From Rhizobiales bacterium NRL2 (GTDB lineage Bacteria > Pseudomonadota > Alphaproteobacteria > Minwuiales > Minwuiaceae): a stretch of 64,000 bases of DNA. The stretch is taken from assembly GCA_001664005.1 (NCBI GenBank), contig CP016093.1, forward strand, positions 2,239,001 through 2,303,000, read 5' to 3'. Under the pieces are notes generated by a model, which was not told where the DNA came from, did no database searches, and saw only the letters and a list, made by a program, of their open reading frames with translations. The translations under genes and the position numbers were made by a program. Below, one piece after another: positions 13,061 through 14,796 of the stretch. How positions within the stretch are numbered: the stretch's first letter is position 1; each line of letters starts with the position of its first letter.

Positions 13061-13145
13061 GCGGGCGTGGCGGAATTGGTAGACGCGCCAGGTTTAGGTC
13101 CTGGTGACGCAAGTCGTGGGGGTTCGAGTCCCTCCGCCCGCACCA
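13061..13145 (+). tRNA. tRNA-Leu (anticodon UAG)
   Basis: An 85-base type II tRNA with an encoded CCA end at 13143-13145. The acceptor stem GCGGGCG pairs with CGCCCGC. The anticodon arm CCAGG-TTTAGGT-CCTGG puts TAG at positions 34-36. The T arm carries GGTTCGAGTCC. A long variable arm follows the anticodon arm, as expected for leucine. It lies between the 81-residue gene and tig. Confidence 0.96.
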
Positions 13146-13280
13146 GGTTCAGCCGTGGCTGGGGCGGAACGGTACACGACCGGGCCGCGCGGACGGAACA
13201 GCGGGCCGCGGGCGCGGCCGCAATGACAGTATGAAGGTCCCCTGTCCGGCGGGGCCCGGTGGAAAAGGAAAGAGGCGTCG

Positions 13281-14714
13281 ATGCAGATCGAACAGCTTTC
13301 GGCGGAAGGTCTGAAACGCGAATACAAGATTGTGGTGCCCGCCGAGGACGTCGAGGCGAAGATGTCGGCGAAGCTGAAGGAGCTCAGCGGCCAGGTCCAG
13401 ATGAAGGGCTTCCGGCCCGGCAAGGTGCCGCCGAAGCTGCTGCGCCAGATGTACGGCAAGTCCATCCTCGGCGAGGTCCTCGAGGAGACGCTGAACGAAT
13501 CCAGCCAGAAGGCGCTGGAAGACAATGACGTGCGTCCGGCCGTGCAGCCATCGATCGAGATCGAGAGCTTCGACGAGGGCCAGGATCTGGCCTACAAGAT
13601 GTCGCTCGAGATCCTTCCCGATTTCGAGATTGCCGACCTGTCCTCGCTGGAGGTGGAACGCCTGACCGCCGAGGTGCCCGACGAGACCGTCGACAGCGCG
13701 CTGGAGCGCCTGGCGCAGGATCAGACGACCTACGAGAAGATCGAGGAGGATCGCCCCGCTGCCGAAGGCGACGCGATCGTGATCGACTTCGTCGGCAAGG
13801 TCGATGGCGAACCCTTCGAGGGCGGCGCCGGCGAGGAGGTCCAGATCGTGCTGGGGCAGGGTCAGTTCGTGCCGGGCTTCGAGGAGCAGCTTGTCGGCAA
13901 GAAGGCGGGCGACGAGACGGTCGTCACCATCACCTTCCCCGAGGAATACGGCGCCAAGGACCTGGCCGGCAAGGAAGCGAACTTCGACGTCACCGTGCGC
14001 GAGATCCGTGCGGCCCGGGCTGCCACGATCGACGACGATTTCGCCAAGCAGCTGGGCCTGGACGATCTCGCCGCCCTGCGCGAGACCATGCGCGGCCGCA
14101 TCGCCGAGGAGTACGGCGAGATCGGCCGCATGCGCCTGAAGCGCGAGGTTCTCGACAAGCTGGCCGAACGCCATGACTTCGAGGTTCCGCCGGGTATGGT
14201 CGAGACCGAGTATGATCAGATCGTCCGTCAGGCGAAGGCCGAGGATGGCCAGCAGGACGACCATGATCACGACCACGACCACGATCACGAACATGATCAC
14301 GAACATGATCACGACCATGACCACGAACATGATCATGAACACGACCATCCGCCGGTCGACGAGGGGCTGGACGACGAGAAGAAGGACGAATACCGCAAGA
14401 TCGCGGAGCGGCGCGTCCGCCTGGGTCTCGTGCTGGCCGAGATCGGCCGCGAGAACAAGCTGGAGGTCACCCCCGACGAGGTGAACCGGGAGATCATGAA
14501 GCAGGCGCGCAACTTCCCCGGTCAGGAACGGATGGTGGTCGAGTTCTACCAGAAGAACCCGGACGCCATGCAGCGGCTGCGCGCGCCGGTCTTCGAGGAC
14601 AAGGTGATCGACTTCATCGTCGAGATGGCGAAGGTCAGCGAGCGCAAGGTGAGCCCCGAGGAGCTGTCGGCGGATCCGGACGCGGATGAGGAAAACGCCG
14701 CAGCGAGCGCCTGA
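13281..14714 (+). CDS. tig: Trigger factor, with a histidine-rich insertion
   Basis: Ribosome-associated chaperone and peptidyl-prolyl isomerase. The N-terminal ribosome-binding domain (about 1-130) carries the signature GFRPGKVPPKLLRQMYG. The FKBP domain spans about 150-245 (GDAIVIDFVGKVDGEPFEGG) and the helical chaperone domain runs to 477. The protein is longer than the roughly 430-residue norm. Much of the excess is residues 326-356, where 15 histidines at every even position from 328 to 356 alternate with Asp or Glu. The ATG follows AAAAGGAAAGAGG. It heads the tig-clpP-clpX-lon block. Confidence 0.97.
   Translation: MQIEQLSAEGLKREYKIVVPAEDVEAKMSAKLKELSGQVQMKGFRPGKVPPKLLRQMYGKSILGEVLEETLNESSQKALEDNDVRPAVQPSIEIESFDEGQDLAYKMSLEILPDFEIADLSSLEVERLTAEVPDETVDSALERLAQDQTTYEKIEEDRPAAEGDAIVIDFVGKVDGEPFEGGAGEEVQIVLGQGQFVPGFEEQLVGKKAGDETVVTITFPEEYGAKDLAGKEANFDVTVREIRAARAATIDDDFAKQLGLDDLAALRETMRGRIAEEYGEIGRMRLKREVLDKLAERHDFEVPPGMVETEYDQIVRQAKAEDGQQDDHDHDHDHDHEHDHEHDHDHDHEHDHEHDHPPVDEGLDDEKKDEYRKIAERRVRLGLVLAEIGRENKLEVTPDEVNREIMKQARNFPGQERMVVEFYQKNPDAMQRLRAPVFEDKVIDFIVEMAKVSERKVSPEELSADPDADEENAAASA
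14262..14348 (+). repeat. In-frame His-(Asp/Glu) alternating repeat inside tig
   Basis: Twenty-nine codons read CAT/CAC alternating with GAT/GAC/GAA, giving His at each even residue from 328 to 356. The DNA is built from near-repeats of CATGATCACGAA with mixed synonymous codons. The alternation therefore appears maintained at protein level rather than being a fresh slippage product. It encodes a flexible, strongly metal-chelating tract in the chaperone domain. Confidence 0.9.
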
Positions 14715-14764
14715 CGGTTTTCGAACCGCCGCGGGCGCGCCATATTTGTGGTGTGATTCCATTC

Positions 14765-14796
14765 GCGGCGGCCGGAGCGCCATCCGGTACCGCCGC
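14765..14796 (+). promoter_or_regulatory. Hairpin in the clpP leader
   Basis: Seven pairs (14765-14771 with 14790-14796) and, after a two-base bulge, five more (14772-14776 with 14783-14787) close a six-base loop. It lies 24 bases before the clpP start and is not followed by a T run. It may mark the 3' end of the tig message or influence clpP translation; neither can be decided from sequence. Confidence 0.45.

Follow-up and report, generated by a model that had tools for sequence, protein, structure and literature searches.

The question raised by this locus is why a trigger factor (TF), a protein regarded to our knowledge as a general chaperone without metal, should carry a long run of histidines. 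The window, that is, the whole stretch of DNA analysed, comprises 64,000 nucleotides of Rhizobiales bacterium NRL2 (contig CP016093.1, positions 2,239,001 to 2,303,000). It contains a complete TF open reading frame on the plus strand, with the following features:

13281-14714, plus strand: tig, trigger factor of 477 amino acids; Pfam Trigger_N, FKBP_C and Trigger_C; closest solved relatives by sequence and fold are E. coli TF 1w26 and 2vrh
13281-13712, plus strand: ribosome-binding domain, residues 1-144; Trigger_N, with GFRPGKVP at residues 43-50
13752-13997, plus strand: FKBP-type prolyl isomerase domain, residues 158-239; Pfam FKBP_C
14190-14267, plus strand: first helix of the arm-1 hairpin, residues 304-329; AlphaFold2 model, arm 1 being named after E. 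coli TF (PMC5722895)
14262-14348, plus strand: alternating His-(Asp/Glu) tract, residues 328-356, with 15 His; probable metal-binding loop at the arm-1 tip, from sequence; disordered in the AlphaFold2 model
14373-14453, plus strand: second helix of the arm-1 hairpin, residues 365-391; AlphaFold2 model, within the Trigger_C stretch 365-448

The N-terminal part of the protein matched Trigger_N with an E value of 2.7e-42, and its residues 43-50 fit GFRxGxxP, the ribosome signature of TF (PMC5988418). The FKBP domain and the two-armed C-terminal domain were both present (FKBP_C and Trigger_C), and the nearest solved folds to the model of this protein were E. coli TF 2vrh and 1w26. The gene is the sole Trigger_C locus in the 4.70 Mb source genome. 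It is preceded by a tRNA-Leu at 13061-13145 and followed by open reading frames which we take to be clpP, clpX, lon and an HU-type gene by resemblance. The antisense strand of tig (13149-14783, minus strand) is open for 544 codons and, opposite the tract, encodes successive Val, Ile, Met and Phe residues; this frame is probably a by-product of the high G+C content and the repeat and not a gene. Judged by its sequence, the protein is an otherwise ordinary trigger factor whose arm-1 hairpin is closed by a loop carrying an inserted His/acid tract.

The tract is 29 residues long, with His at 15 alternate positions and Asp or Glu at the remaining 14, and it holds all but one of the 16 His of the whole protein. 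It is written with 8 CAC, 7 CAT, 5 GAC, 5 GAT and 4 GAA codons. An earlier note on this DNA had described 15 alternating His at residues 328-356, and our recount reproduced its position and composition exactly. The same note placed the tract inside the helical C-terminal domain, which the structure prediction did not bear out. In the AlphaFold2 model (33 sequences, mean pLDDT 84.6), residues 325-356 had a pLDDT under 50 and lay between the helices 304-329 and 365-391, which makes the tract a disordered loop at the hairpin tip and no part of a helix. The alignment to E. coli TF stops after residue 323 and restarts at 336, with the insert in between; E. coli TF has about 12 ordinary residues at this site. 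Since arm 1 of E. coli TF consists of residues 302-360 (PMC5722895), the insert is located at the arm-1 tip.

The earlier note had named absence of the tract from all close relatives as one outcome that would refute its reading. A His-rich insert at the arm-1 tip was found in all seven full-length TFs of the family, five from the source genus including the protein itself and two from other genera, which rules out a private expansion of the source genome. The note had also asked whether the length varies, and it does: the compared tip regions of the seven proteins contain 15, 14, 14, 9, 11, 7 and 5 His, so that length is not conserved within one family. An eighth TF of the family (L122 and L123 of genome G002) is split over two contigs inside its own repeat. 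Fragmented assemblies may therefore often lose or shorten such tracts, and surveys would undercount them. No TF was found in one further genome (G006).

The comparison across the class used a single TF per family and covered 120 alphaproteobacterial families. These were drawn from 142 genomes, 133 of them with a TF match, after leaving out four second family members, six weak matches and three sequences that were contig-broken, truncated or frameshifted. HxHxH was present at the arm-1 tip in 13 families (one positive contains unread bases) and HxH only in 5 more, while the other 102 had no HxH at the tip whatever. Elsewhere in the protein, HxHxH occurred in just two families, both times in the C-terminal tail (L187 of G144 and L012 of G040) instead of the arm tip; that of L187 is a long His/Asp tail, a placement like that of SlyD. 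Over the 120 families, 3.6% of the tip residues are His compared with 1.0% in the remaining TF, and because of this enrichment and the rarity of the motif in the genome as a whole, the tract is far beyond chance. Long tracts of at least nine His were seen in families f1, f58, f96, f97, f107, f109, f133 and f135. Two families have short tips with both His and Cys (L227 of G076, a genome of 0.9 Mb, and L197 of G115), which resemble compact metal sites in sequence. Other tips of low complexity were also observed, with a tract of Lys/Asp in L213 and one of Ala/Pro in L144.

The distribution is patchy. In family f135 the tract was present in four of four genomes. In genus g99 a long tract was found in one of four species, with an ordinary loop in the other three, indicating that tracts arise quickly and that the tract is dispensable in that genus. 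A TF tree was built from 134 rows with the tip columns excluded and 12 broken or very divergent rows left out; on it the HxHxH state required 14 parsimony changes, a soft figure because 60 of the 131 inner branches are weakly supported. With this number and the 102 families lacking tip HxH, a single old trait of the whole class is not favoured. A class-wide search with a pattern starting with CAC matched 10 of 385 genomes, one of these matches (G297) being no TF. A search with an anchored pattern of three His gave matches in 2 of 398 Pseudomonadota genomes, both alphaproteobacterial, and in none of the 263 other Pseudomonadota among them. On the loci retrieved, this pattern recovers just 8 of the 13 His-tip families, and the search is thus a weak negative that hints at a tip confined to Alphaproteobacteria.

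A different form of the tip was found in Rhodobacterales. All 56 TFs of this order in named genomes, among the best 80 of 139 loci, have a 39-residue tip with five His spaced as H-x3-H-x8-H-x-H-x8-H (within loci L035-L112). Four of these His are invariant and the fifth is present in 55 of 56, whereas several neighbouring positions differ between the sequences, and the His codons include CAC as well as CAT. The motif appears from its sequence to be a fixed site without repeat. Among the same best 80 loci, tip HxH was found in none of the 10 Hyphomicrobiales rows and none of the 7 Sphingomonadales rows. In the model of a Celeribacter TF (L060; mean pLDDT 88.4) the tip is ordered, with block means of 80 and 87; His 317 and 321 sit close to where one helix ends, 330 and 332 fall within the loop, and 341 begins the helix that follows. 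Such an arrangement could be what a small metal site resembles.

Selection and slippage both appear to shape the tract. The earlier note took the variety of synonymous codons as an argument against recent slippage, and this argument fails. The tract DNA is an imperfect tandem array with periods of 6, 12 and 24 bases, and it diverges rapidly: compared with a close relative in the source genus (G004), 69 of 81 tract bases are identical and there is one 6-base indel, while the flanking coding sequences are identical at 964 of 981 and 359 of 363 bases. Between these two genomes the changes in His codons are all synonymous, and at the acidic codons Asp and Glu replace each other in places and one Gly appears. 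Residues were counted by register in seven uninterrupted tracts, taken from seven families and each with at least nine His, leaving out three interrupted or shifted tracts of f135 and short tracts. None of the 78 interior residues in the His register was anything other than His, whereas 15 of the 85 residues in the other register were not Asp or Glu (Fisher p = 3.7e-5). The clustered His are thus retained while the sequence turns over. In a wider table of 25 tips, 34 residues in the His register were not His, mostly at register shifts or in tips without a repeat. Fast turnover of the tract with retention of His argues for selection on His. Hence, of the note's statement that the tract looks selected and not recently slipped, the first half is supported and the second is not, since slippage does occur.

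Other genes with the same kind of motif were sought with a four-His acidic pattern in nine genomes, and it was matched in six, all of the source genus. In the source genome it was found in TF and in one other gene, the cobaltochelatase CbiX. The other genomes of the genus have it in TF, CbiX, UreE, NicO, an ABC ATPase (Pfam ABC_tran) that we infer to be ZnuC-like, and one protein (L273 of G005) which is presumably sensor-kinase-like. The N-terminal part of the latter contains a short stretch of His and acidic residues, and this protein is possibly a metal sensor. The source genome also encodes a separate SlyD-like FKBP, in which a His tail was looked for and not found. UreE is present in all six genus genomes of the search, the source included. 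Across families, UreE was found in 6 of the 8 with at least eight His versus 28 of the 112 others (p 0.006; genome-size-stratified p 0.008). On the tree, this association came down to two independent pairs in a run that also counted a second member of the source family, too few for a link between UreE and the tract to be upheld. NicO showed no association with the TF tract among the families compared.

The earlier note had likened the tract to the His-rich regions of SlyD and HypB. As far as this points to hydrogenase maturation it is disfavoured, since neither the source genome nor any of the 12 other sampled genomes with tip HxHxH yielded a HypA (0 of 13); the HypA search matched 14 of 142 genomes, 11 of them above the cut-off. 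The note's general reading of the tract as metal-binding fared better. It is consistent with the recurrence of the tip, the five-His motif of Rhodobacterales, the His/Cys tips of two families, and a motif shared with proteins of cobalt, nickel and probably zinc.

Taken together, we consider it somewhat better than an even chance that the tract loosely and reversibly binds several ions of divalent transition metals (Zn, Ni or Co), which would let TF serve as a buffer or sink for metal. TF is an abundant protein, and when bound to the ribosome it would adjoin the exit tunnel; with this abundance and position, it may buffer metal in the cytosol and near nascent chains at the ribosome, much as the tail of SlyD and the extension of Helicobacter HspA probably do. 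This proposal, drawn from sequence comparison and analogy, would account for the use of the same tip site in many lineages, HxHxH being there in 13 of 120 families, for the presence of the tract in all seven TFs of the family and for the conserved Rhodobacterales motif. It also agrees with the retention of His (0 of 78 changed versus 15 of 85), with the Cys that joins the His cluster in L197 and L227, with the other carriers of the motif in the genus (CbiX, a ZnuC-like ATPase, NicO, UreE and one sensor-kinase-like protein), with the absence of a His tail from the SlyD-like FKBP of the source genome, and with the Ni binding that E. coli SlyD owes to its unstructured tail (PMC7055735). Against it stand the variable length (5 to 15 His), the three of four g99 species without a tract, the 102 of 120 families without tip HxH, the UreE link that did not hold on the tree and the lack of a link with NicO.

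Several of these observations can be read differently. If the tip is a permissive disordered loop, it may have gained hexameric repeats by slippage in a nearly neutral manner, without any function. The tandem units of 6, 12 and 24 bases, the fast divergence from G004, the single g99 species with a tract and the Lys/Asp and Ala/Pro tips of L213 and L144 are all what such a process would leave behind. However, His should then be lost as readily as the acidic residues, and none of the 78 interior His positions had changed. Moreover, the loop repeats are mostly His-rich, the Rhodobacterales motif is conserved and is not a repeat, and two families carry the His tract at the C-terminus instead, so we regard expansion without function as unlikely.

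A metal could also act as a switch. Bound at the arm-1 tip, it would stabilise or block the dimer of TF, a form that buries the ribosome-binding loop, and thereby set the share of TF working at ribosomes. The insert lies between E. coli TF residues 323 and about 336, and in NMR the strongest shifts on addition of the ribosome-binding domain were at arm-tip residues 323, 331, 335 and 336 and at 376, 380 and 386 (PMC5722895). Leu314, Phe322, Leu332, Leu336 and Phe337 of arm 1 pack on the ribosome-binding domain of the other protomer (PMC5988418), and Ni reversibly inhibits the prolyl isomerase of SlyD (PMC7055735). In the Celeribacter model the Rhodobacterales motif reaches from one helix end to the other across an ordered loop, which might suit a regulatory site. 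On the other side, the E. coli dimer data may not transfer to alphaproteobacteria, and a long disordered tract of variable length suits precise switching poorly; we hold the switch to be rather unlikely. Its broad form, in which arm-1-tip metal would shift TF between a ribosome-bound monomer and a storage dimer in many Alphaproteobacteria, with Rhodobacterales using an ordered five-His site and other groups expandable His/Asp tracts, we likewise judge unlikely. Another proposal is that the tract passes metal to nascent metalloproteins in the TF cradle. The TF arms do form a substrate cavity (PMC5722895), and the urease accessory protein UreE is encoded in all six searched genus genomes. Such loading has no known client, urease is already served by UreE, and the hydrogenase partner HypA was absent in 13 of 13 tip-HxHxH genomes, which makes it quite improbable. 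Polyphosphate binds His repeats, and a tract that is half acidic might be a metal-free brush of acidic and imidazole groups for TF solubility, pH sensing or polyphosphate binding. The term 'histidine repeats' does occur in a polyphosphate paper (PMC13202173), but His is retained while its acidic partners vary and Cys accompanies His in two families, so that we give this idea very little credence.

We found no publication on a His-rich trigger factor in the open-licence full-text literature, judged by titles and abstracts, and the word 'histidine' is absent from the main text of a study on TF duplicates (PMC11559001). His-rich tracts on other chaperones are already known; what is new here is a probable metal-binding tract, recognised by its sequence, on a chaperone not known for one. 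The recurrent His patches at the tip suggest that a general folding helper may have been repeatedly converted into a metal holder. If metal buffering by TF is true, the recurrent His tip and the Rhodobacterales five-His motif would connect metal homeostasis with the folding of proteins at the ribosome; if the switch is true, folding capacity at the tunnel exit would be tied to cytosolic metal. A practical nuisance is also predicted, since the native TF of these bacteria should stick to nickel columns.

Among known systems, the TF of the source genome is like canonical TF (E. coli 1w26) in its three domains, ribosome signature and hairpin arms, and differs in holding a His tract where E. coli TF has ordinary residues. 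E. coli SlyD binds up to 7 Ni with a Kd below 1.8 uM, its metal-binding tail is unstructured, and the tail differs between species (PMC7055735). Like SlyD, the TF combines an FKBP prolyl isomerase, a chaperone domain and a disordered His-rich tract with acidic residues (PMC7055735). It is not itself a SlyD, which is an insert-in-flap FKBP without a ribosome-binding domain, because it has Trigger_N and Trigger_C. Unlike the C-terminal, Cys-containing tail of SlyD, its tract is internal, at a hairpin tip, on a ribosome-bound chaperone of another family, in a genome where HypA was not found. HspA of H. pylori is a GroES with a His/Cys-rich extension that acts as a nickel sequestration domain (PMC7840056). 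Both HspA and the TF are general folding chaperones with a lineage-specific His-rich addition; however, the addition of HspA is C-terminal, contains His and Cys and belongs to one genus, whereas the TF tract is internal, recurs over many families and sits on an unrelated chaperone. The His-rich tails and loops of CbiX, UreE, NicO and the ZnuC-like ATPase are of the same alternating His/acid type and occur in the same genus, but these are dedicated metal proteins and TF is not.
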